IMG/VR virus record: IMGVR_UViG_3300029266_001478
Location: 1-39,198 of that record
Origin: a virus
Direction: 5' to 3' (one strand)
DNA: 39,198 bases
Shown here: one piece after another, positions 4,523-39,198 of the stretch
How the letters are laid out: every line of letters starts with the position of its first letter
How positions within the stretch are numbered: position 1 is the first letter of the stretch
Position numbers and translations under genes: made by a program
Notes under the pieces: generated by a model
Database searches by the model: none
The model's input: only the letters and a program-made list of their open reading frames with translations
Told to the model about the DNA's origin: nothing

Positions 4523-5155
4523 ATGAAAAAGATTTTAAATGAGTGGAATGAGTTCTTAAGCGAGAGCAGCATAAGCCGTTCTTATGAACACATCCTCAAA
4601 CACGACACTGGATTCCTTACAGCATTTCGTGATAACACCAAGGACACTACAAAGTGTATGAGCGACCATAGCAAAACTCTTGAGAATTTTGAGCGCAACA
4701 GGCAATTGAAGGCCGTTCTGTTGAACAAGGGCTACGGTGTAACTGCTGTCGATGGCACCTATGTCGAAGATTTTGGAACAGAGGCTGCGAAAGAAGTCAA
4801 AGAAGACTCGTTCTTTGTTGCTAATCTTAAAGACAATCCAAACTTTAAGGCTGATCTTCGGGGTCTATCCGAACACTTTTGTCAAGACTCATTTTTGTTT
4901 GTTTCTCGCGGTGGCGAACAATCTTTTCTTGTTGGAACAAACAAGGCAGAGTTCCCTGGATACGGAAACGAAGAAGAGACAGGCTCATTTCTTGGCGGAC
5001 AAGAAGGCGAGTTTATGACCCGCGTTGGAAAAACAAAGCGCCCCATCAAATTTGCTGAGGGTCTTGAAACCAAAGCTAAAATGCAGAACAACACAAAGTT
5101 CCTCATCTCGCGCCTCGCCAAGCAGGTCCTACAGGAGATGAAGGGGGATAGTTGA
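4523..5155 (+). CDS. DUF3293-like protein
   Basis: 210 aa, GGAG ribosome site 10 nt upstream. The segment RNRQLKAVLLNKGYGVTAVD, then EDSFFVANL, then HFCQDSFLFVS and FLVGT follows the DUF3293 layout, whose biochemical role is unknown. The N-terminus KKILNEWNEFLSESS is a short hydrophobic/acidic helix of a type shared loosely with other genes here that follow the ACTATTTAT motif. The C-terminus is a helix (LISRLAKQVLQEMK). Family assignment is by eye and moderate. Confidence 0.6.
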   Translation: MKKILNEWNEFLSESSISRSYEHILKHDTGFLTAFRDNTKDTTKCMSDHSKTLENFERNRQLKAVLLNKGYGVTAVDGTYVEDFGTEAAKEVKEDSFFVANLKDNPNFKADLRGLSEHFCQDSFLFVSRGGEQSFLVGTNKAEFPGYGNEEETGSFLGGQEGEFMTRVGKTKRPIKFAEGLETKAKMQNNTKFLISRLAKQVLQEMKGDS

Positions 5156-7939: not shown

Positions 7940-10900
7940 ATGACTGAGAGAGCACAGAGCAAGATCAAGTTTATTGGGCTACACGCCCACAGCGTAGCGG
8001 GGTCCATCTTTGATGGGCTTGGCTTTCCCCAAGAGCATATGGACTTCGCCTATCAGAATGGAATGGATGCGCTCGCGCTCACTGACCACGGCAATCAGAA
8101 TGGATTAGCCTATCAGGTGCTACACGCCAAGAAAATGAAGTCCGAAGGCAAGGACTTTAAGCCAATCTTTGGCTGCGAAGCCTACTTCATTCCCTCAGTT
8201 GACGAGTGGAAAGAAGAATACGATCAGACAATGCTGGATAAGAAGAAGGCACGAGCAGCAAAGAAGGCTGGTGCGTCTGGTGCTACTGTTGAGGACGAAG
8301 GCGCGAGCAAGGGTAAGGGTAGCAGCGTTCTACGCCGTCGCCGCCACCTCGTGCTTCTAGCACAGAATCAGAAGGGTTTGAACAACCTGTTCAAGCTTGT
8401 GTCCGAGAGCTATAAAGATGAGAACTTCTACCGCTATCCACGAATGGACTATAAGATGCTCAAAGAGCACGGTGAAGGCATCATCGCTTCGTCCGCTTGT
8501 CTCGGCGGCGTCTACGCTGGCAATTACTGGGAGAACAGAGACGAAAGCCCGGAGGCAGTCCTTGGCGCTATGCGCGAGACTACCAGAAGGATGGTTGATG
8601 TGTTTGGTGATCGCTGGCACGGCGAGATCCAGTGGAACAATGTCCCAGAACAGCACGAACTAAACAAGTTTGTTATTCAGGTTTGTGATGAGTTCGGGGT
8701 TAAAGTAATCTCGACCGCAGACTCTCACTATCCTAGCCGCGATGCCTGGAAGGACCGCGAACTCTACAAGCGACTTGGTTGGCTTGGTAAGGGCCGCCCA
8801 CAGTGGGCAGACTCCGAGAGCGAGTTGCCCATCTCTGTTGATGAGATCGGTTACGAGCTTTACCCCAAGAATGGCGATGAGATGTGGGAGAGTTACAAGA
8901 ACTACTCTCAAATGTGCAAAACAAACTATGATGATGACCTCGTGCTGAATAGCATTGAAGAGACTCACCGCATTGCTTTTGATCGCATTGAGAACTTTCT
9001 ACCAGACAACACCGTCCGCCTTCCGTCGTTCGTGGTTCCTGCCGGGAACACTGCAACAGAGGCTCTGATCAAATTTTCGATCGAAGGGCTGAACAAACTT
9101 GGGTTTGCTGACAACACAGATTACCTAGCGAGATTAAAGCACGAACTGAATGTCATTGATGACCGAGGCTTCTCTAAGTATTTCTTGACAATGAAAGCTA
9201 TCGTTGATGTCACGGACACAATGATGCTTGCTGGTCCCGGTCGCGGCTCGGCTGCTGGCTCTCTTGTGGCTTATTGTCTTGGGATTACGCAGGTTGATCC
9301 TATTAAATATGATCTTCTCTTCTCCCGTTTCCTGCGGGCTGATGCAAAGGACTACCCAGATATTGACTATGACATCTCCCGTCCGATGGAACTCAAGGAT
9401 AAATTGATTGAGTTGTGGGGCGAGGATTGTGTTGCGCCCATCTCCAACTGGAACACACTTCAGTTGAAGTCGCTCATCAAGGACATTTCCAAGCTCTACG
9501 GTATTCCGTTTGGTGAAGTTAACTTGGTGACCAACGCAATGATCAAAGAGGCAACTCCGCTTGCCAAGCAGAAGCACGGCATCAAAGCTGGAATGTATAA
9601 CCCCACTTGGCAGGAGGTGATGGAGTTCTCTGATTCGCTCAAGAACTTTTTGAACACCTACCCTGATGTTAAGACGCACGTTCAGTCACTTGTCGGGCAG
9701 GTTCGCTCTTGTTCTCGCCACGCTGGTGGCGTTGTGATTGCCGAGGACCTAGACAAGTACATGCCTCTCATCAATTCCAAGGGTGTCCGACAGACGCCTT
9801 GGTCAGAGGGGCAGAATGTCAGGCATCTTGAGCCGATGGGTTTCATTAAGTTCGATCTTCTTGGGCTCTCCACTCTTGCTATGATGGAGACTGCGATTGA
9901 GCAGATTCTAAAGCGCCACCACGGCATTGAAGAGCCCACTTTCTCACAGGTCAAGGACTTCTATGACAAGAGGCTTCATCCTGATGTGATTGATCTGAAT
10001 GACGCAAAAGTCTACAAGAATGTTTTTCACAAGGGCAACTTTGTGGGCACTTTCCAGTTCACCGAGGACGGAGCCCAGAGTTTCGCAGAGAGAGCGACAC
10101 CAAATAACATTATTGACATCTCTGCCATTACATCAATCTATCGACCCGGTCCCCTTTCGGCGAATGTCCACGAGGACTTTATTGAGGCAAAGAACAGTCC
10201 GCATCTCATCAAATACTTGACGCCTGAAGTTCAAGAGATCACCGAAGAAACATTTGGCTTCTTGATCTTTCAGGAACAAATCGCCAAGATTGCTCACGCA
10301 CTGGGCAAGGACCTGTCCCTTGATGAGGGCAACTTGCTCCGCAAGCTTCTAACCAAGAAGGGCACCGGCAAGGGCTTCGAGGTTAAGGATGCTATTCACA
10401 AGAAGTTCATTACTGGTTGTGTGGAGAAGGGTATCACAAACCGCGAAGCACAGGCTCTTTGGGAGAAGTTTGAATACTTCTCTGGCTATGGTTTCAACAA
10501 GTCCCACGCTGTTGCTTATTCTCTCATCTCTTATCAGTGCGCTTGGCTACTGACTTACTATGAGCCTGAGTGGGTTTCGGCGTTCCTCTCAAGAGAGCCA
10601 GAGAAGAAGAAAGAAAACGCCATTAACACCGCCAAATCCCTTGGCTACCACATTCAGCCAGTCGATGTAAATACATCTGGTCGTGTATGGGAGATCGGAG
10701 AAGATAACAAGACACTGATTCAGCCACTCACCAGCATCAAGGGCTTCGGTGACTCTGCGATGGATCAGGTGTTGAACAATCGACCATTCACAGACATCGA
10801 GGATCTTCTCTTCCGAGAGGAGATTAAATATGCTAAACTAAACAAGAAGGCACTTGATGCTCTTTGTCGAGCGGGTGCTATGGATAGCCTGATGGATGAC

Positions 10901-11383
10901 AGGTTCACAGGTCGCAAACACTTCTGGTCAGCGTCAGTTGTAGACCGTCCAAAGACCAAGAAGAAGTTTCACGGTAACATCGATCTCTATCGTCCAGAGG
11001 GAGACTTCTCAGAGGAAGAAATCATCCAGTTCAAGACCGATCTGACTGGCGTGTTTCCGATGTCCTTGGTTGTAAGCCCAGAGATGATTCAGGATCTACG
11101 AGACAAATACATCCCACCTATCTCAGAGTTTGATGAAGGGTTGCAAATCTGCTGGTTTATTCCACGCAAGATTATTCCGAAGAAGACAAAGAAAGGAAAA
11201 GACTATTGGATTCTAGAAGTGATTGATTCCAATAACGAGACAGAGAAGATTAGATGCTGGGGAGTTGATGTAAAGAAGGACAGAATTCACATCAATCGTC
11301 CCTATCTATCACGGCTGAGTTACGATCCGAAGTGGGGCTTCTCCACTAGGTCGGTTTACAGAAACTTTAGAATGTTAGGCTAA
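7940..11383 (+). CDS. dnaE: DNA polymerase III alpha subunit (C-family polymerase)
   Basis: 1147 aa, near the bacterial DnaE length. Residues about 9-290 are a PHP domain with the metal-site motifs intact (HAH at 15-17, LTDHGN, GCEAY, HLVLLAQ, SACLGG, ADSHY), so it may be catalytically active. The polymerase core has GPGRGSAAGS from residue 432, PDIDYD with catalytic Asp 476 and 478, and GFIKFDLLGL with Asp 639. An HhH segment (SIKGFGDSAM) and a C-terminal OB-like region (CWFIPRKIIPKKTKKGKDYW) follow. No DnaQ-type exonuclease domain is fused. It is the only DNA polymerase in the window. It has its own promoter and an AAGGA ribosome site. Confidence 0.95.
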   Translation: MTERAQSKIKFIGLHAHSVAGSIFDGLGFPQEHMDFAYQNGMDALALTDHGNQNGLAYQVLHAKKMKSEGKDFKPIFGCEAYFIPSVDEWKEEYDQTMLDKKKARAAKKAGASGATVEDEGASKGKGSSVLRRRRHLVLLAQNQKGLNNLFKLVSESYKDENFYRYPRMDYKMLKEHGEGIIASSACLGGVYAGNYWENRDESPEAVLGAMRETTRRMVDVFGDRWHGEIQWNNVPEQHELNKFVIQVCDEFGVKVISTADSHYPSRDAWKDRELYKRLGWLGKGRPQWADSESELPISVDEIGYELYPKNGDEMWESYKNYSQMCKTNYDDDLVLNSIEETHRIAFDRIENFLPDNTVRLPSFVVPAGNTATEALIKFSIEGLNKLGFADNTDYLARLKHELNVIDDRGFSKYFLTMKAIVDVTDTMMLAGPGRGSAAGSLVAYCLGITQVDPIKYDLLFSRFLRADAKDYPDIDYDISRPMELKDKLIELWGEDCVAPISNWNTLQLKSLIKDISKLYGIPFGEVNLVTNAMIKEATPLAKQKHGIKAGMYNPTWQEVMEFSDSLKNFLNTYPDVKTHVQSLVGQVRSCSRHAGGVVIAEDLDKYMPLINSKGVRQTPWSEGQNVRHLEPMGFIKFDLLGLSTLAMMETAIEQILKRHHGIEEPTFSQVKDFYDKRLHPDVIDLNDAKVYKNVFHKGNFVGTFQFTEDGAQSFAERATPNNIIDISAITSIYRPGPLSANVHEDFIEAKNSPHLIKYLTPEVQEITEETFGFLIFQEQIAKIAHALGKDLSLDEGNLLRKLLTKKGTGKGFEVKDAIHKKFITGCVEKGITNREAQALWEKFEYFSGYGFNKSHAVAYSLISYQCAWLLTYYEPEWVSAFLSREPEKKKENAINTAKSLGYHIQPVDVNTSGRVWEIGEDNKTLIQPLTSIKGFGDSAMDQVLNNRPFTDIEDLLFREEIKYAKLNKKALDALCRAGAMDSLMDDRFTGRKHFWSASVVDRPKTKKKFHGNIDLYRPEGDFSEEEIIQFKTDLTGVFPMSLVVSPEMIQDLRDKYIPPISEFDEGLQICWFIPRKIIPKKTKKGKDYWILEVIDSNNETEKIRCWGVDVKKDRIHINRPYLSRLSYDPKWGFSTRSVYRNFRMLG

Positions 11384-12328: not shown

Positions 12329-12439
12329 TTGGAACATCTGTTTAACTGCCACGGCGAATGGGCAGCACTTTTTACTTGCTTTAGTTCGTTACCAATGTTA
12401 AGATATTGGTACAAGTCCAAAAATATGGAGGAAACTTGA
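12329..12439 (+). CDS. Small membrane-associated CHxEW-type protein, 36 aa
   Basis: TTG start 4 nt after a strong AGGAGG. The product begins MEHLFNCHGEWAALF, continues with a hydrophobic stretch (AALFTCFSSLPMLRYW) and ends basic/polar. The stop TGA overlaps the TTG start of the next gene, a junction style used throughout this window. The pattern CHxEW-hydrophobic-LP-W resembles tiny membrane proteins I recall from other marine phages, but that is memory, not a search. Function unknown. Confidence 0.6.
   Translation: MEHLFNCHGEWAALFTCFSSLPMLRYWYKSKNMEET
12376..12404 (+). promoter_or_regulatory. Possible weak promoter for the adenylosuccinate synthetase homologue
   Basis: TTGCTT at 12376-12381, 17-nt spacer, TAAGAT at 12399-12404. 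It lies inside the 36-aa gene. A start near 12411 would leave the TTG at 12436 with its GGAGG intact. Confidence 0.4.
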
Positions 12440-13443
12440 TTACAGACATCGTTATAGGTCTTCAGCACGGAGACGAGGGTAAAGGAAAGGTAACCCATCA
12501 CCTACTCAAAAATGGAGAATATACACATTGTGTAAGATTTAATGGAGGTTGCAACGCAGGACACACTATTTACCACAATGGAACAAGACTTATCACTCAT
12601 AGCATCCCTGCTGGTGTGTTCTTTGATGTTACCTCCGTTATTGGAAATGGTTGTGTTATCGATCCGGTCAGACTCTTCGAAGAAATAGAATACCTTGAGT
12701 CTCACGGCATCAACGTGAGAGACAATCTAAAGATTGCTAAGAATGCTCACATCATCACCACGCTTCATAAGGCGCAGGATGGCAAAGACGAGCGAATCGG
12801 CACCACTAGAACAGGCAATGGACCTGCCTACCGAGATAAATATGCTCGTGTTGGCGCCCGCGCTGCCGACATCCCAGAACTTTATCCTTTTCTGGTTGAC
12901 ATCTACGAAGAACTCTCAGGTGATTCCGCAATCTTGATGGAAGGCGCTCAGGGCTTCTGGCTAGACCCTGACTGGGGCGACTACCCCTATGTCACCTCCT
13001 CACACACAGGGACGGCTGCTGCCATTCAGAACGGCATTAACCCACGCTCTATCCGCAATGTGTGGGGAATAATCAAGGCTTACGAGACCTATGTGGGCAA
13101 GAGACCATTCCAGCCAGAGGGGGAAGTTTTTGAACACATCCAGAAGGTCGGACAAGAATTTGGAGCCACCACAGGACGTGTCAGGCAGTGTAATTGGCTA
13201 AATTCAAGAGAGATCCGACAGGCAATCGATATGAACGGGGTGAACCGCCTTGTCGTGAACAAGATGGATGTCTTGCGAGAACTCGACGCCTGGGGCACCA
13301 CAGAGGGCCGCATCCACGGCGAAGAGCACTACCGCCGCCACATCGAGGACCAGTTTAGTCCGAGACTAGGCATCGAGAAGATTTATTTCTCTGACAATCC
13401 CCGCACAATCGGTGAAGAGAACCGCTTGACAGACGCCGCCTGA
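12436..13443 (+). CDS. purA: Adenylosuccinate synthetase homologue (PurA-like, short archaeal/phage type)
   Basis: 335 aa from TTG 12436, which follows GGAGG; an in-frame TTG at 12406 is an alternative but lacks a ribosome site. The P-loop-like GLQHGDEGKGK retains the catalytic Asp of PurA; GGCNAGHT supplies the catalytic His. IGTTRTGNGPAY, EGAQG, TSSHTGTAA and the C-terminal TTGRVRQCNWLN are family segments. The length is well below E. coli PurA (432) and near archaeal PurA and viral PurZ. PurA joins IMP and Asp with GTP. Because the Asp is kept, I favour PurA over PurZ, the 2-aminoadenine enzyme. A GMP reductase-like gene at 18106 makes or uses the same intermediate. Confidence 0.85.
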   Translation: MITDIVIGLQHGDEGKGKVTHHLLKNGEYTHCVRFNGGCNAGHTIYHNGTRLITHSIPAGVFFDVTSVIGNGCVIDPVRLFEEIEYLESHGINVRDNLKIAKNAHIITTLHKAQDGKDERIGTTRTGNGPAYRDKYARVGARAADIPELYPFLVDIYEELSGDSAILMEGAQGFWLDPDWGDYPYVTSSHTGTAAAIQNGINPRSIRNVWGIIKAYETYVGKRPFQPEGEVFEHIQKVGQEFGATTGRVRQCNWLNSREIRQAIDMNGVNRLVVNKMDVLRELDAWGTTEGRIHGEEHYRRHIEDQFSPRLGIEKIYFSDNPRTIGEENRLTDAA

Positions 13444-17752: not shown

Positions 17753-18131
17753 AAGAATAAATCGCCGCAATCTAGAACAGATTCTAAGCGGCGCGGTAAA
17801 GGCGCCTCACGAGGTGGTAATCAAGCTCTACGGCTCGAACTGCCACCTGTGTCATGCACTAAAGCCACTCTTTGTTGACATTGCTGTAGACTATGATGGA
17901 GTTCATTTCTACGCTTTTAATATGGAAGACGGAGACGGCCTTGAGAAAAAATATGGCTTTAAAGGTGTTCCCGCCATATGCTTTGTAAAGACCGGTGGGA
18001 TAAAGCCGGTTATTCGTTTCTTGGAAGAACCCAAGAAGCCCCATAAAGAAACTTGGTATCATCAGACGGGAATCAGGCAGTTTATTAACAACAATAGGAA
18101 CAAAGATGAAAGAAGCACTAACATACGATGA
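17736..18131 (+). CDS. Thioredoxin-like protein
   Basis: 131 aa. The active-site motif CHLC (C36-C39) follows strand VVIKLYGSN, with KGVPAICFV supplying the cis-Pro. The middle CHLC residues differ from the classical WCGPC, so its redox potential may differ. A likely partner is the class II ribonucleotide reductase at the left edge. The ATG at 17736 overlaps the DUF3310 end; an alternative ATG lies 6 nt on. It overlaps the next gene by 26 nt. Confidence 0.85.
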   Translation: MKMGVKRINRRNLEQILSGAVKAPHEVVIKLYGSNCHLCHALKPLFVDIAVDYDGVHFYAFNMEDGDGLEKKYGFKGVPAICFVKTGGIKPVIRFLEEPKKPHKETWYHQTGIRQFINNNRNKDERSTNIR

Positions 18132-19128
18132 TGTCCTCCTCGTTCCGAAGTGTTCCGATATCCGCTCTCGATCTGAAGTGGACATCTCAACTGATCTTGG
18201 GAACAACCTCTTTCTTGAGTTTCCGATTGTTTCATCGCCGATGGACACAATCTCTGAAGAATTCATGGCTAGGTCTATGCATTCGGCCGGCGGAACTGCC
18301 GTTATTCACAGATATTGTAGCATAGAAACACAATCTGGAATGATCGGTAGGGCCTTCTCTATGGGTGCTACCAATATAGGGGGCGCCATTGGTGTGTCTG
18401 GAGACTATCTTGAACGCGCCCATGCCGCACTGGAACAAGGCTGTCGCTTTCTCTGTGTTGATGTTGCTCACGGACATCACATAATGATGAAAGAAGCCCT
18501 TGAGAACCTAAGAAAAACTTTCGGCGGTAACATCCATATCATGGCTGGAAATGTGGCCACCCTTTCGGGCATTAACGCTCTTGCTGATTGGGGTGCCAAC
18601 TCGGTTCGTTGTAACATTGGGGGAGGCTCTATCTGCTCTACCAGAATTCAGACAGGTCATGGCAAGCCGGGCCTCCAAACAATCTTTGATTGTGACAAGA
18701 CTGACCGGGATGTATCCATCATTGCCGATGGGGGTATTCGTAACGCTGGTGACATTGTAAAAGCAATAGCCGCTGGTGCCGATGCTGTTATGCTTGGTTC
18801 GCTTCTCGCAGGAACAAGAGAGACGCCCGGCGAGGTGTTCACAGATGAGATGGGAATAAAATACAAAACCTATCGCGGAATGGCCTCAAAAGAAGCGCAG
18901 GTTGATTGGCGTGGAAAATACTCGTCTTTTGAGGGTGTTTCGTCTACTGTTCCTTATCGTGGCAAAGTGACAAACATTCTTGAAGATCTCAAGCGCGGCA
19001 TTCGGTCTGGTTTCTCTTACTCCGGCGCTCGCTCTATAGCACAATTCCAAACAAAAGCCGAATTTATCCGTCAGACCAATGCCGGACTTGGCGAAAGCCG
19101 GACGCACATCACCACAAGGAAGTGGTAG
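18106..19128 (+). CDS. IMP dehydrogenase / GMP reductase family protein, GMP-reductase-like flap
   Basis: 340 aa TIM barrel without CBS domains. The start [11 protein letters not shown] and IVSSPMDT resemble IMP dehydrogenase. The catalytic loop [10 protein letters not shown] places Cys 177, and [15 protein letters not shown] binds the phosphate. The flap RGMASKEAQ, then [16 protein letters not shown] (271-286), aligns gap-free with the GMP reductase flap (EYRAAEGKTV type), with Glu 276 at the position of its catalytic Glu. The DRYFQ motif of IMPDH is absent. So the reaction may be GMP to IMP rather than IMP to XMP. The PurA homologue at 12436 uses IMP. The call of GuaB versus GuaC is unresolved. 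Confidence 0.85.
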
Positions 19129-22542: not shown

Positions 22543-24123
22543 ATGACCAATAAAATGGTCTTCGCTAACAACGAAGAACTACGACAGAAGATTCTAGCCG
22601 GAGCCAACATTCTGGCTGATTATGTCTCTTCTACTCTCGGACCAAAGGGCAGAACCGTTCTGCTCAAAGAAAAAGACAAGACAGCATTCGCAACAAAGGA
22701 CGGCGTTACAGTAGCACAGTTTGTTCAGTTGGACGATGTGTTTGAAAACGCTGGCGCCCAGATTATTCGCCAAGCAGCAAATGAAACTAACACAAGCGCC
22801 GGAGACGGCACAACCACTGCCACTGTTCTTGCGAGAGCGATCCTAAACGAAGCACAGCGGCACATAGTCGCCGGCGTTTCGCCAATCGAACTACAAAGGG
22901 GAATAGATGCCACAGTTGCAGAAATCAACAAAAACCTTACGGAGATGGCAAGACCGGTTACTAGCATTGAAGATATCAAACACATCGCTACTATTTCAGC
23001 CAACAACGATTCGACTATTGGCGATCTCATTGCTCTGGCTGTTGATAAAGTTGGACAAGATGGCTCTATCACAATTGAAGAGTCTCGGTCTTTAGAAACC
23101 TCTATCGATGTTACAGAGGGCTTCCGCTTTGCCGCTGGCTACTGTGCTTCTGCGTTTATTAACGATGAGCGCCGCAACATTATGCATCACGAAGAACCGC
23201 TTGTGTTGGTCACTGATTACAAGATTGTCCAGGTAGAACAAATCCTTCCGATTCTTGAGTTGGTCTCAAGAGAGTCTCGACCCCTGATCATTGTTGCTGA
23301 AGACCTTGAGGGGCAGGCACTTGCCGCAATGATTATGAACGCAATGCGAGGCTCTTTGAAGATTGCCGGTATCAAAGCCCCGTTTTATGGAGAAGAGCGC
23401 CGAAACTTGCTTTCCGACCTCGCTTTATCAACTGGTGCGACATTCATTACCCGAGAATCAGGCCAGAAGCTACAGACCATAACCTTAGCACAACTTGGCT
23501 CTGCCAAGTCTGTTGAGAGCACGAAGGTCGGCACTATTATTGTTGGAGGCAACTGCGACTACGAAGGAGTCGAGACACGAATTGGTAGCCTGAAAGCCGA
23601 GATCTCTAACACAGATGATTTTGCCGAGTGCGAACGAATTCAAGGTCGCATTGTGCGACTATCTTCAGGTGTTGCTGTTGTCCATGTTGGCGGCGCAACC
23701 CAGGTAGAGATGACCGAACGCAAGCATCGTATTGAGGACGCATTAGAAGCAGTGAGATCTGCTCAGGAAGAGGGAGTAATCGGCGGTGGTGGAACGGCTC
23801 TGCTGAGGGCCAGCCAAGCGATCACGATTACAACTGACCACGAAGAACAAGCGATTGGAATGACAATTGTAAAGAATGCCTGTGAGGCCCCCTTCCGCCA
23901 GATGTGTAAGAACGGCGGCAAGAGTGAAGATTTACTATTGAACCATATCCTCAGTGAGGTAGAAGGAATGGGCTATGATTTTAGATCAGGTGTCTTAGTA
24001 GACCTCTATGACAAGGGGATTCTAGACCCAGTTAGGGTAACCAAGTCCGCACTAAAGAATGCAGCTTCTTGCGCCGGCACACTGATTACCACTAATTATG
24101 GAATCATTCAGGCAGAGCAATGA
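22543..24123 (+). CDS. groEL: GroEL-like chaperonin
   Basis: 526 aa, ATG after CGGAGG, near full GroEL length (about 548) but without the Gly/Met tail. ATP-site motifs STLGPKGRTVLL, DGVTVAQ and AGDGTTTATVLA are present, as is IGGGGTALLRA near the C-terminus; the apical domain (FINDERRNIMHHEEPLVLV) is more diverged. Known role: ATP-driven folding in a double ring with GroES. A GroES homologue is at 626. Phage chaperonins can fold phage capsid or tail proteins. The strong dedicated promoter suggests high expression. Confidence 0.93.
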   Translation: MTNKMVFANNEELRQKILAGANILADYVSSTLGPKGRTVLLKEKDKTAFATKDGVTVAQFVQLDDVFENAGAQIIRQAANETNTSAGDGTTTATVLARAILNEAQRHIVAGVSPIELQRGIDATVAEINKNLTEMARPVTSIEDIKHIATISANNDSTIGDLIALAVDKVGQDGSITIEESRSLETSIDVTEGFRFAAGYCASAFINDERRNIMHHEEPLVLVTDYKIVQVEQILPILELVSRESRPLIIVAEDLEGQALAAMIMNAMRGSLKIAGIKAPFYGEERRNLLSDLALSTGATFITRESGQKLQTITLAQLGSAKSVESTKVGTIIVGGNCDYEGVETRIGSLKAEISNTDDFAECERIQGRIVRLSSGVAVVHVGGATQVEMTERKHRIEDALEAVRSAQEEGVIGGGGTALLRASQAITITTDHEEQAIGMTIVKNACEAPFRQMCKNGGKSEDLLLNHILSEVEGMGYDFRSGVLVDLYDKGILDPVRVTKSALKNAASCAGTLITTNYGIIQAEQ

Positions 24124-36028: not shown

Positions 36029-36057
36029 TTGACAACTGCCTGATGACAGGCTAAATT
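36029..36057 (+). promoter_or_regulatory. Promoter for the 36080 and tilS genes
   Basis: TTGACA at 36029-36034, 17-nt spacer, TAAATT at 36052-36057. Confidence 0.72.
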
Positions 36058-36067
36058 ATAAGAATAA

Positions 36068-36349
36068 GGAGAACGAAGAATGAACGCAATTTCACAGGCT
36101 TTTGCAGCTATTGGATTCCTCATTATCGCTGGGATCGCCACAACCACTCGGATGAGGATTGACACCATTGAGGAGAAGGTTGACGCAAGAAACAACCTCA
36201 CCAGCGGCAAAGCGAATTATCTACCGGGCTCCGCTTGCGTCATAGCCACATCAGCAGAGCAAACCCCCGCAGACATTATCAACTATGCCAGAGCGTGCGG
36301 TAAAGCTCACGAAACGTGGCTTGAAACCCTCAAGGAGAACGAAGAATGA
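36068..36349 (+). repeat. Two further exact copies of the RBS/stop/start element GGAGAACGAAGAATGA
   Basis: Copies at 36068-36083 and 36334-36349, over 32 kb from the five copies near 3 kb. The first sits after a promoter and gives the start of the 36080 gene; the second supplies its ENEE end and the tilS start. Confidence 0.9.
36080..36349 (+). CDS. Small membrane-anchored protein, 89 aa
   Basis: ATG inside a junction repeat. One N-terminal hydrophobic segment (AISQAFAAIGFLIIAGIA) followed by a polar, largely helical tail; probably an inner-membrane anchor with the remainder on one side. Ends LKENEE through the second junction repeat. Function unknown. Confidence 0.65.
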   Translation: MNAISQAFAAIGFLIIAGIATTTRMRIDTIEEKVDARNNLTSGKANYLPGSACVIATSAEQTPADIINYARACGKAHETWLETLKENEE

Positions 36350-36945
36350 TTCACATCACAGGTAAGATCCCAAGAAGAGTTGCTGTCGCTGTAAGTGGCG
36401 GCATTGACTCTATGGCAGCCCTCGACCTTCTTCGCAGAGCCCACGATGTTATTGTCCTTCACTACAATCACGGCACACCTTATGCTCCAAAGGCAGAGGC
36501 TCTTGTTCGTGCTTATTGTATTGAGCACAAACTAACCATCGTCGTCGGAAGGTGCGAGGAAGAGATGCCTGCTGGTGTTTCCCCCGAAGCATGGTGGCGT
36601 GATCGTCGTTATGATTTCTTCACAGAAGCAACAGACCTCCCTGTCATCACAGCACATCACCTTGATGATCAGGTCGAGAACTATCTGTTTACTGCGCTCA
36701 ACGGAAACCCGTTTCTTATCCCACATGCCCGCGATCAGTTTATCCGACCTTTCTTGACCACAGAAAAGCGCGACTTTACGATGTGGTGCATAAGGAAAGA
36801 AGTTCCGAGCATCAGCGATCCCAGCAATGGAGACTATCGCTACAGGCGCAACTACATTCGCAATGTAATGATGCCGCACGCCCTTCACATCAACCCAGGG
36901 CTGAAGAAGGTCATCAGGAAGAAAGTAATCAAAGAAATCGGTTGA
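36346..36945 (+). CDS. tilS: tRNA(Ile)-lysidine synthetase-like protein (TilS)
   Basis: 199 aa, about the size of the TilS catalytic domain (E. coli TilS is 432 aa). PP-loop motif VSGGIDS (residues 16-22), AHHLDDQVENYL (HH 104-105, DDQ 107-109) and SDPSNGDYRYRRNYIRN are TilS hallmarks rather than those of other PP-loop ATPases. TilS converts C34 of tRNA-Ile(CAU) to lysidine, switching decoding from AUG to AUA. A tRNA gene with CAU anticodon lies at 38447, so an internal substrate exists. The C-terminal tRNA-binding domain seems missing. The start is in a junction repeat. Confidence 0.85.
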   Translation: MIHITGKIPRRVAVAVSGGIDSMAALDLLRRAHDVIVLHYNHGTPYAPKAEALVRAYCIEHKLTIVVGRCEEEMPAGVSPEAWWRDRRYDFFTEATDLPVITAHHLDDQVENYLFTALNGNPFLIPHARDQFIRPFLTTEKRDFTMWCIRKEVPSISDPSNGDYRYRRNYIRNVMMPHALHINPGLKKVIRKKVIKEIG

Positions 36946-36970
36946 CAGCCTGCGAACGCCCGGTTACATT
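36942..36970 (+). promoter_or_regulatory. Promoter for the first pentapeptide gene
   Basis: TTGACA at 36942-36947, 17-nt spacer, TACATT at 36965-36970. The -35 overlaps the tilS stop. Confidence 0.82.
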
Positions 36971-36991
36971 AAGAGGGAGAGAGGGGTCCAA

Positions 36992-37489
36992 ATGAAGCCA
37001 TCAGAACTGAAGAACATTCTTGACCAGCACAAGCTGTGGATCGAAAGCTCCTACCAGAAGGGCGAGCGCGCTAACCTTCAGTACGCTAACCTTGAGAGCG
37101 CTAACCTTCAGGGCGCTAACCTTCAGGGCGCTTACCTTCAGGGCGCTAACCTTCAGTACGCTAACCTTCAGAGCGCTAACCTTCAGAGCGCTGACCTTGA
37201 GGACGCCAACCTTCAGTACGCTTACCTTCAGTACGCTTACCTTCATGGCGCCAACCTTTGGGGCGCTAACCTTCAGGGTGTTAACCTTGAGAGTGGTAAC
37301 CTTCAGAACGTTGACCTTCGGGGCGTTCACCTTCAGGGCGCTACTTTTGACCTAAACTTCAAGAAGGTCGGTTATTTTCGCAATGCTATTTTCTCTGAAG
37401 ATCAGATCGCCTGGGTGTGCTTGCATCCAAAGTTCCACGAATGGGCTTCCACCCTAAAGTGGGTGAAAACAGAACGACTTTCTGCTTGA
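36992..37489 (+). CDS. Pentapeptide-repeat protein A
   Basis: 165 aa. A 25-residue helical head (ELKNILDQHKLWIESSYQKG) is followed by about 17 pentapeptide repeats of type A(N/D/Y)L(Q/E)x, forming a right-handed beta-helix, then a globular tail with WVCLHPKFHEWASTLKWV. The DNA repeats as 15-nt units (GCTAACCTTCAGGGC). The family includes gyrase-protecting DNA mimics (Qnr, MfpA), but most members have unknown targets. The head, tail and promoter are near-identical to the next gene, so one arose by duplication. Confidence 0.88.
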   Translation: MKPSELKNILDQHKLWIESSYQKGERANLQYANLESANLQGANLQGAYLQGANLQYANLQSANLQSADLEDANLQYAYLQYAYLHGANLWGANLQGVNLESGNLQNVDLRGVHLQGATFDLNFKKVGYFRNAIFSEDQIAWVCLHPKFHEWASTLKWVKTERLSA

Positions 37490-37514
37490 CAGCAGACGAT
37501 CGCCGGGCTATATT
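37486..37514 (+). promoter_or_regulatory. Promoter for the second pentapeptide gene
   Basis: TTGACA at 37486-37491, 17-nt spacer, TATATT at 37509-37514. Nearly identical to the 37998 and 38238 promoters. Confidence 0.82.
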
Positions 37515-37533
37515 ACAAGGGTAAGGAGAAGCA

Positions 37534-38001
37534 ATGAATGCGACAGAGTTGAAAGTCATTCTTGACCAGCACAAGCTGTGGATCGAAAGCTCCTACCAGA
37601 AGGGCAAGCGCGCTAACCTTCAGGGCGCTAACCTTCAGTACGCTAACCTTCAGGACGCTCGCCTTCAGGACGCTCGCCTTCAGGACGCTAACCTTCGGGG
37701 CGCTGACCTTTGGGGCGCTGACCTTGGAGGCGCTAACCTTCGGGGCGCTGCCCTTCAGCGCGCTAACCTTGGAGACGCTTACCTTCAGGGCGCTGACCTT
37801 CAGGGCGCTAACCTTGGAGACGCTTACCTTCAGGGCGCTCGCCTTCAGGGCGCTACTTTTGACCTAAACTTCAAGCAGGTCGGTTATTTTCAAAATGCTC
37901 TTTTCTCGGAAGATCAGATCGCTTGGGTGTGCTTGCATCCAAAGTTCCACGAATGGGCTTCCACCCTAAAGTGGGTGAAAGCAGAGCGACTTTCTGCTTG
38001 A
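37534..38001 (+). CDS. Pentapeptide-repeat protein B
   Basis: 155 aa. Head (LDQHKLWIESSYQKGKRANL) and tail (WVCLHPKFHEWASTLKWVKA) are almost the same as in protein A, whereas the repeat block differs: more Arg (ARLQDA), Asp and Gly (LGGA, LGDA) at the variable positions. So the ends are held constant while the coil surface changed. AAGGAGAAGC ribosome site. Function unknown; the DNA-mimic idea applies as for A. Confidence 0.88.
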   Translation: MNATELKVILDQHKLWIESSYQKGKRANLQGANLQYANLQDARLQDARLQDANLRGADLWGADLGGANLRGAALQRANLGDAYLQGADLQGANLGDAYLQGARLQGATFDLNFKQVGYFQNALFSEDQIAWVCLHPKFHEWASTLKWVKAERLSA

Positions 38002-38026
38002 CAGCAGACGATCGCCCGGTTACATT
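37998..38026 (+). promoter_or_regulatory. Promoter for the 38047 gene
   Basis: TTGACA at 37998-38003, 17-nt spacer, TACATT at 38021-38026. The -35 overlaps the pentapeptide B stop. Confidence 0.82.
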
Positions 38027-38046
38027 ACAAGAGTAAGGAGAGGCAG

Positions 38047-38241
38047 ATGAAGGTCGGAGATCTTATTTACGATGAGCACTATGGCTACGGGATCGTCTAC
38101 GATTTTTATGGTGTTCCCGGCGATGATGATGCTGTTATTCACTTCTTTTCTTGTGATGCCGGTCGAAAAATCTGTCACCTTGAGCGGCATTTGTGGCACT
38201 CCGTTGAGGTTGTCTGCGAGACACCTCAAAATAATCCTTGA
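38047..38241 (+). CDS. MKVGD-type small protein, SH3-like predicted
   Basis: 64 aa, AAGGAGAGG ribosome site. MKVGDLIYDEHYGYGIVYDF, then AVIHFFSCDAGRKICHLERH: the start and strand-turn layout of the MK(V/I)GD group seen at 3320-7847. It has its own promoter and is followed by another copy of the same promoter. Function unknown. Confidence 0.68.
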   Translation: MKVGDLIYDEHYGYGIVYDFYGVPGDDDAVIHFFSCDAGRKICHLERHLWHSVEVVCETPQNNP

Positions 38242-38266
38242 CAGCAGACGATCGCCCGGTTACATT
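38238..38266 (+). promoter_or_regulatory. Promoter with no clear gene downstream
   Basis: TTGACA at 38238-38243, 17-nt spacer identical to the 37998 promoter, TACATT at 38261-38266. The next 180 bases hold only two more promoters and no convincing gene. First of three stacked promoters before the tRNA(CAU) gene. Confidence 0.8.
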
Positions 38267-38325
38267 GAGAGGGAGAGAGGGGAGCACCCCTCACAACGAT
38301 GAAGCGAGAACATCAAAAAAAATGC

Positions 38326-38354
38326 TTGACAAGCCGCACCCCTCCGGTTAGATT
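38326..38354 (+). promoter_or_regulatory. Second stacked promoter
   Basis: TTGACA at 38326-38331, 17-nt spacer, TAGATT at 38349-38354, followed by GTAAGGAGG without a usable ORF. Nearly the same core as the 38402 promoter, including the preceding A-run. Confidence 0.75.
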
Positions 38355-38401
38355 ACAGGGGTAAGGAGGAACACAGCGACCTCCCGACGCAAAAAAAATG
38401 C

Positions 38402-38430
38402 TTGACAAGCCGCACCCTCCCGGTTATAAT
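38402..38430 (+). promoter_or_regulatory. Third stacked promoter, directly before tRNA(CAU)
   Basis: TTGACA at 38402-38407, 17-nt spacer, TATAAT at 38425-38430, a perfect consensus. CCCTCC (38415-38420) and GGAGGG (38432-38437) flank the -10 box as an inverted repeat. Confidence 0.87.
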
Positions 38431-38446
38431 AGGAGGGACACCTTAC

Positions 38447-38523
38447 TGGGTAGTGGCGAAATTGGTAATCGCAGCGGTCTCATAAACCGAAGATTGAGGG
38501 TTCGATCCCCTCCTACCCTACCA
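38447..38523 (+). tRNA. tRNA with CAU anticodon, probably tRNA-Ile(CAU)
   Basis: A cloverleaf is readable: acceptor 38447-38453 with 38513-38519, D arm from 38456, anticodon loop CTCATAA with CAT at 38481-38483, T arm GAGGG/CCCTC with loop TTCGATC, A discriminator and encoded CCA. Position 1-72 is a U-U mismatch and 27-43 a G-A mismatch. The D stem has C11-G24, which is elongator rather than initiator type. Identity (Met or Ile after lysidine modification) cannot be proved; the TilS homologue 1.5 kb upstream favours Ile. Confidence 0.82.
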
Positions 38524-38587
38524 TTTTAACAGCATAGGTGTCGTCTCTACCTTAAAAGAGGCATTTAACCAACAAAAGGACAATAAA

Positions 38588-38791
38588 TTGACTACTACTC
38601 TAAACAGCAGCTTCCTCCGCGAGGCATCCTACAACGCCGGCAGCCGCACTCTTACTGTCGTCTTCTCTAACGACAAGATCTATACTTACAAGAACGTCGA
38701 TCAGTCCGTTTACCAGGGGCTAATCACCGCTGAGAGTTCCAGCCGCTTCTTCACCAGTAACATTCGTGACAGCTTTACCACGACTGGCTGA
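38588..38791 (+). CDS. KTSC-domain protein
   Basis: 67 aa, TTG start after AAAAGGACAATAAA. NSSFLREASYNAGSRTLTVV, then KIYTYKNV and SSRFFTSNIRDSF match the KTSC domain, with the central YxY (YTY). That domain occurs alone in bacteria and phages and fused at the C-terminus of some lysyl-tRNA synthetases; an RNA-binding role has been suggested but not shown. Here it lies between two tRNA genes. Confidence 0.8.
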   Translation: MTTTLNSSFLREASYNAGSRTLTVVFSNDKIYTYKNVDQSVYQGLITAESSSRFFTSNIRDSFTTTG

Positions 38792-38799
38792 AAAAGTCC

Positions 38800-38827
38800 T
38801 TGACAGCCGCCGCCCCCCGGTTATAAT
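38800..38827 (+). promoter_or_regulatory. Promoter for tRNA-Arg(UCU)
   Basis: TTGACA at 38800-38805, 16-nt spacer, TATAAT at 38822-38827. CCCCCC (38813-38818) and GGGGG (38829-38833) flank the -10 box. Confidence 0.85.
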
Positions 38828-38839
38828 AGGGGGCAACAT

Positions 38840-38915
38840 GGCTCCATGGTGAAAGGGATTATCATTTCGAGTTTCTACCTCGACGTTCCACGTTCGAATC
38901 GTGGTGGGGCTACCA
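38840..38915 (+). tRNA. tRNA-Arg(UCU)
   Basis: Full cloverleaf: acceptor GGCTCCA with TGGGGCT (two G-U pairs), D arm GTGA/TCAT, anticodon stem TCGAG/CTCGA with loop TTTCTAC (anticodon TCT at 38874-38876), T arm CCACG/CGTGG with loop TTCGAAT, A discriminator and encoded CCA. It reads AGA (and AGG by wobble), a codon used often in the phage genes here. Confidence 0.93.
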
Positions 38916-39116: not shown

Positions 39117-39167
39117 GTAAATTGTAGGTAGGCTTATGCAACGTGGGTTGAAATACACCCCGCCTAC

Positions 39168-39198
39168 AAGCCGCTGGCACACCGGTTAAAGTGTGCCA
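39168..39198 (+). tRNA. Possible 5' part of a third tRNA, cut by the window edge
   Basis: AAGCCGC then TG, GCAC, ACCGGTTAAA, GTGT would be acceptor strand, positions 8-9, and a D arm with a GG-containing loop. The region also forms an 8-bp hairpin (TGGCACAC with GTGTGCCA). The anticodon part lies outside the window, so this remains open. Confidence 0.35.

Follow-up and report, generated by a model that had tools for sequence, protein, structure and literature searches.

TilS is the bacterial enzyme that alters the anticodon of a single tRNA so that the AUA codon is read as isoleucine, and its cellular forms are thought to need their C-terminal domains to separate tRNA-Ile2 from tRNA-Met. The present analysis concerns a tilS gene and a nearby gene for a tRNA with a CAU anticodon in a 39,198-base virus record (IMG/VR record IMGVR_UViG_3300029266_001478, a large environmental phage with a GC content of ~45%), referred to in its full length as the window, and apparently itself a fragment. 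In the current structural account TilS types I and II both reach the anticodon and acceptor stems of the tRNA through C-terminal domains (PMC12514573). Phage TilS was first reported in 2019, in Pseudomonas phages PA5oct and MIJ3, and the portion of that report available to us proposed a role in host viability, with no tie to a phage tRNA (PMC6892783). The enzyme has also been annotated in pelagimyophages (PMC7029224) and as ORF84 (open reading frame 84) of Ralstonia phage RsoM2USA, which at 349 amino acids is longer than the window protein (PMC8504454); the available sections of these two reports contained no tie to a CAU tRNA. On the substrate side, T4-like phages carry a tRNA-Ile(CAU) (PMC1524935), and the tRNA(CAU) of a T4-like vibriophage bears lysidine, as cited in PMC13191261, so that in both cases, as proposed here for the window, a phage CAU tRNA is thought or shown to be lysidinylated.

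Both the existence of phage TilS and the occurrence of lysidine on a phage tRNA are therefore already known. What appears to be new, no report of it having been found in the open-licence literature, is a conserved one-domain form of the enzyme and its linkage to the gene of its substrate tRNA. We consider it likely that the phage uses this one-domain TilS to lysidinylate a tRNA(CAU) of its own, giving an isoleucine-charged, AUA-reading tRNA. The retained PP-loop catalytic domain would bind ATP, lysine and the anticodon loop, and would add lysine to C34 to create the anticodon LAU (where L is lysidine), and the product would then be charged by isoleucyl-tRNA synthetase and decode AUA. From what is observed, namely the protein family, its architecture, its conservation and its linkage to CAU tRNA genes, we infer the activity, the substrate, selection by the anticodon arm and the benefit to the phage.

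A one-domain TilS family in phages

The window gene (36346–36945, + strand) codes for 199 amino acids. A preliminary description, made from the DNA letters and the translated reading frames alone, had named the product a TilS-like enzyme, and profile, motif and structure comparisons agree. The protein matches the NCBIfam profile TIGR02432 (lysidine_TilS_N) with 107.4 bits over profile positions 1–189 of 189, above the curated cut-off of 93.6, as well as Pfam ATP_bind_3 (2.9e-30). It carries the motifs SGGIDS (the PP-loop), HHLDDQ, DPSN and RNYIR, and the corresponding patterns SGGxDS, HHxDDxxE, DxSN and RNxxR are invariant or nearly so across 22 phage sequences; they align to the TilS structures 1wy5, 3a2k and 1ni5. 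These same structures were matched by a profile of the phage family, whose top hits were TilS of A. aeolicus (3.7e-34), G. kaustophilus (1.1e-28) and E. coli (2.6e-27). An AlphaFold (AF2) model of the window protein has a predicted local distance difference test score (pLDDT) of 94.7, and the first five Foldseek ranks obtained with it are all TilS. With the type II enzyme of A. aeolicus (1wy5/2e21/2e89) the protein shares the catalytic domain and the motifs SGGxDS, HHxxDxxE, DxxN and RNxIR, at a TM-score of 0.83 by query length; the A. aeolicus enzyme, however, has 317 residues, of which the match covers 25–228, and its C-terminal domain 1 is absent in the phage protein. By profile match and predicted fold, the window gene encodes the TilS catalytic domain. 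Foldseek also lists the thiolases TtuA and NcsA, which have the PP-loop fold in common with it, as would be expected had the gene left lysidine synthesis for a different PP-loop activity, for example the thiolation of tRNA or some unrelated ligation that depends on nucleotides. Such a change of function is highly improbable in light of the retained TilS-specific motifs, the TIGR02432 score above cut-off, the exclusively TilS top matches and the specificity of the linkage to CAU tRNA genes described below.

The absence of a C-terminal domain, noted in the preliminary description as a trimming of this one protein, proved to be a fixed trait of the family. Viral TilS from 55 clusters at 90% identity are 195–216 amino acids long, with a single protein of 235, as compared with a median of 443 amino acids for bacterial TilS (80 loci fetched). 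Neither C-terminal domain 1 (found in types I and II) nor domain 2 (type I) is present in the window protein, which stops after the catalytic domain and is followed by an unrelated gene; this, with the constant length across the clusters, rules out a frameshift truncation or a fragment. Short complete bacterial TilS are those of Saccharibacteria (283–296 amino acids), and the sole case of 207 amino acids among the bacterial loci is L098, a contig of a 'Halobacteriovorax' metagenome-assembled genome with phage-like neighbours. This contig (PBIO01000016.1), binned with a bacterium, carries a one-domain tilS, a CAU tRNA and an IMP dehydrogenase, resembles phage DNA, and is possibly a clue to the host or a binning error. 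In a maximum-likelihood tree (a quick search on a similarity-chosen sample, unrooted) one branch, with a Shimodaira–Hasegawa-like approximate likelihood ratio test (SH-aLRT) value of 100, parts all 56 phage-type rows from the 37 bacterial rows. The PA5oct and MIJ3 proteins, also of one domain (~203 amino acids) and 42% identical, lie on the same phage branch. Since types I and II both have C-terminal domains, the phage proteins represent a third architecture when set against the account in PMC12514573.

Having lost the domains that contact the rest of the tRNA, the phage enzyme would probably recognise its substrate through the anticodon arm. The missing stem-contacting domains of cellular types I and II (PMC12514573) would also suit a relaxed or host-directed enzyme that lysidinylates host tRNA-Met as well, harming host translation or blocking the reading of AUG, and E. 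coli tRNA-Met indeed shares the anticodon loop CUCAUAA with the window tRNA. Yet the phage needs tRNA-Met too, the elongator tRNA-Met loop is UUCAUAC in the Firmicutes examined, and the linkage to CAU tRNA genes is a better fit to a dedicated substrate, leaving this explanation quite improbable.

Linkage of tilS to CAU tRNA genes

The tRNA(CAU) gene of the window (38447–38523, + strand, CCA encoded), the probable substrate of the enzyme, begins 1,502 bases downstream of where tilS ends. Such proximity exceeds chance. In 10 of the 34 tilS loci that contain two or more tRNAs, the one nearest to tilS is a CAU tRNA, against 3.65 expected (p 0.0004). Viral contigs, which are fragments, were also scanned without regard to tilS for one CAU anticodon arm and, as controls, for an identical stem carrying a Trp or an Arg-UCU loop. 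Among the matches listed, a scope that holds for all results of these scans, 10 of 96 confirmed CAU tRNAs shared their stretch (≤15 kb) with a tilS gene, as did none of 118 Trp and none of 108 Arg(UCU) tRNAs (Fisher p 4e-6 for CAU against both controls pooled, 0/226). The tie between tilS and a tRNA of the TilS substrate class, which the preliminary description had put forward as a supposition, is thereby upheld at the genomic level. All ten pairs are on the same strand and 0–2.3 kb apart, and the ten proteins are pairwise at most 62% identical, which shows that the set does not consist of close copies of a single case. Nine have the one-domain length; the tenth (L295) seems to be a TilS of bacterial type that runs off the end of its stretch. 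In other phage loci the CAU tRNA gene follows tilS by 12 (L019), 28 (L012) or 114 bases (L029), and a CAU tRNA is present in at least 13 of 22 large tilS contigs, a lower bound because only the best-scoring tRNAs were read; two contigs showed no tRNA of any kind. The pairing recurs in many distantly related phages. In PA5oct, unlike the window, the nearest CAU tRNA is ~7 kb from tilS in the stretch examined. A chance neighbourhood within a tRNA-rich accessory region would agree with the finding that nearly every gene has its own promoter and that the intervening genes vary between phages, but the matched-control scans and the nearest-tRNA test make it scarcely credible. As a separate observation, the tRNA(CAU) beside tilS in L323 (anticodon arm 4982–4996) is 88 nucleotides long, with what appears to be a long variable arm as in Leu and Ser tRNAs.

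Identity of the tRNA(CAU)

The window tRNA is recognised by the Rfam tRNA model (61.5 bits) and by ARAGORN, and folds as a cloverleaf with a CAU anticodon, U33, A37 and the loop CUCAUAA, with mismatches at U1xU72 and G27xA43. When scored by a small classifier that had learned from bacterial Ile2, Met and initiator (fMet) tRNAs (29 of 30 correct in leave-one-out), most tilS-linked phage CAU tRNAs fall with Ile2 and a few are ambiguous, the range being +35.9 to -7.8 bits. A model built from the tilS-linked phage tRNAs, in turn, picks Ile2 over Met and fMet in Firmicutes genomes in which all three are clustered, the labels of these bacterial tRNAs following the E. coli annotation and the Bacillus sequences. 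The same classifier gives +57 bits for Ile2 to a CAU tRNA from Vibrio phage 2.275.O, a phage that we take to be the lysidine-bearing vibriophage. A search of this phage and of Bacillus phage BSP38 with the phage-family profile, made without a positive control, found no TilS, and the 2.275.O tRNA is therefore presumably modified by the host TilS.

The window gene occupies the same site as the tRNA genes of L005 and L006, with homologous promoter and downstream DNA. Its anticodon arm (positions 28–42) is shared without a change by L007, L029 and L058 (15/15 against L007); in the acceptor stem and T arm it agrees with L007 at 7 of 14 and 10 of 17 positions, respectively. An initiator tRNA, for which an unpaired 1–72, three G-C pairs at 29–31/39–41 and purine 11–pyrimidine 24 were looked for, is ruled out by the pairs 31–39 (U-A) and 11–24 (C-G), despite the UxU at 1–72. 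A recoded tRNA-Trp was likewise rejected, the blastn match to a Microbacterium phage tRNA-Trp (78% identity over 63 nucleotides) lying largely in common stems.

Several observations weigh against lysidinylation of the phage's own tRNA(CAU). The window tRNA scores -15.5 bits, on the Met side of the Ile2/Met division, and fits every class poorly. Its positions 1 and 72 are unpaired, and it has G4-C69, U5-A68 and G27xA43 in place of C4-G69, C5-G68 and G27.U43, the stem determinants of E. coli TilS as cited in PMC12069591, which are not universal; C4 and C5 are likewise absent in the tRNAs of relatives L005–L007 and L013. AUA makes up 16.8% of the isoleucine codons in the window, against 29% expected from third-position composition, and its use in tilS loci is not above that in other tRNA-bearing loci (p = 0.68). 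Many tilS phages, chiefly in a clade of ~48% identity, show no CAU tRNA within 10 kb, and in some tilS contigs none is seen at all, though these may be fragments. Furthermore, tilS and the tRNA(CAU) gene of the window are driven by separate promoters, the loss of the C-terminal domain could mean lost activity or a new role, and in those parts of the literature that were accessible no report of activity was found for any phage TilS.

Some of these points would suit an enzyme that supplements host TilS, acting mainly on host tRNA-Ile2, with the CAU neighbour incidental and of Met type here. The Met-leaning score of the window tRNA and the many tilS phages in which no nearby CAU tRNA is seen are in its favour; the linkage to CAU, with none to Trp or Arg tRNA genes, the Ile2-like character of syntenic tRNAs in relatives (L006 and L013, +11 bits each; L019, +13) and the exact conservation in the window of the L007/L029/L058 anticodon arm make it unlikely. 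Two further syntenic tRNAs are ambiguous (L005, -2 bits; L007, -8). The identity prediction that the preliminary description had proposed as a refuting test thus gives a mixed answer, the window copy leaning towards Met with a poor fit to every class. A more specific form of the self-lysidinylation proposal, offered tentatively and with less than even confidence, is that phages possess a third, one-domain type of TilS selecting by the anticodon arm alone, in which case the acceptor, D and T arms of the partner tRNA would be free to change, as in the window tRNA. An excess of AUA or AGA codons as the purpose of the set was rejected on the AUA counts given above. A likelier reason than codon bias would be quick modification ahead of charging by methionyl-tRNA synthetase, at a time when the host's factors run short or its tRNAs are broken down, and the pairing of enzyme and tRNA gene would spare new phage tRNA(CAU) both a wait for host TilS and mischarging with methionine.

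Genomic setting

The tilS gene is preceded by an 89-amino-acid ORF (36080–36349, + strand); the stop codon of this ORF and the start codon of tilS share bases (ATGA), making it probable that the two are translated together; a 50% identical homologue lies ~580 bases upstream of tilS in L012/L014–L016. A sigma-70-type promoter (TTGACA-17-TAAATT, 36029–36057, + strand) stands upstream of this pair. The gap between tilS and tRNA(CAU) holds two adjacent paralogous pentapeptide-repeat genes (36992–37489 and 37534–38001), the two products being almost the same as one another in their N-terminal and in their C-terminal parts, and an ORF of 64 amino acids, all three unmentioned in the preliminary description. 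Perfect sigma-70 promoters serve the tRNA(CAU) gene (TTGACA-17-TATAAT, 38402–38430, + strand; homologous in L005, L006 and L013) and the tRNA-Arg gene (TTGACA-16-TATAAT, 38800–38827, + strand). A single operon from tilS to the tRNAs is ruled out by the promoters between them, and with a promoter for the tilS pair and one for each tRNA the arrangement is a neighbourhood. A promoter-like element, TTGACA-N12-CCGGTTANATT, occurs at ten sites in the window (1779–38430, ≤2 mismatches, 0.02 expected), several copies directly preceding genes of the tilS/tRNA region.

A KTSC-domain protein (38588–38791, + strand, 67 amino acids, TTG start; Pfam PF13619, 1.3e-17) and a tRNA-Arg(UCU) (38840–38915, + strand) lie downstream of tRNA(CAU), where they had been placed at the outset, but neither fared well as a functional partner. 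The KTSC gene is found at the same place in L005, L006, L007 and L013/L017, and as its position beside these tRNAs is confined to the closest relatives there is no general link to TilS; the control scan speaks equally against the tRNA-Arg(UCU). The latter was found by ARAGORN alone, being absent from the Rfam tRNA hits at E ≤ 1; it folds as a cloverleaf and, like the tRNA(CAU), is strongly diverged from its counterpart in close relatives. On its 3' side two strong hairpins (39122–39198, z -1.97) are cut by the contig end. Elsewhere the window codes for a PurA-like adenylosuccinate synthase (12406–13443), much nearer PurA than PurZ, a relative of IMP dehydrogenase/GMP reductase (18106–19128), GroEL (22543–24123), a DnaE-type DNA polymerase III alpha subunit (7940–11383) and ThyX (1828–2556). 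An IMP dehydrogenase homologue lies 0.7–2 kb downstream of tilS in L030, L058, L059 and L098, which is not so in the window.

Biological implications

The existence of a widespread phage family lacking the C-terminal domains, and often encoded beside a CAU tRNA, renders the recognition exerted by the catalytic domain itself directly testable, and phage TilS with its tRNA(CAU) offers a minimal enzyme–tRNA pair for AUA decoding. It also suggests that phages can bring with them both a modification and the tRNA that needs it. Should selection by the anticodon arm alone be true, the two would constitute a self-contained minimal AUA-decoding pair, largely independent of the identity rules of the host.

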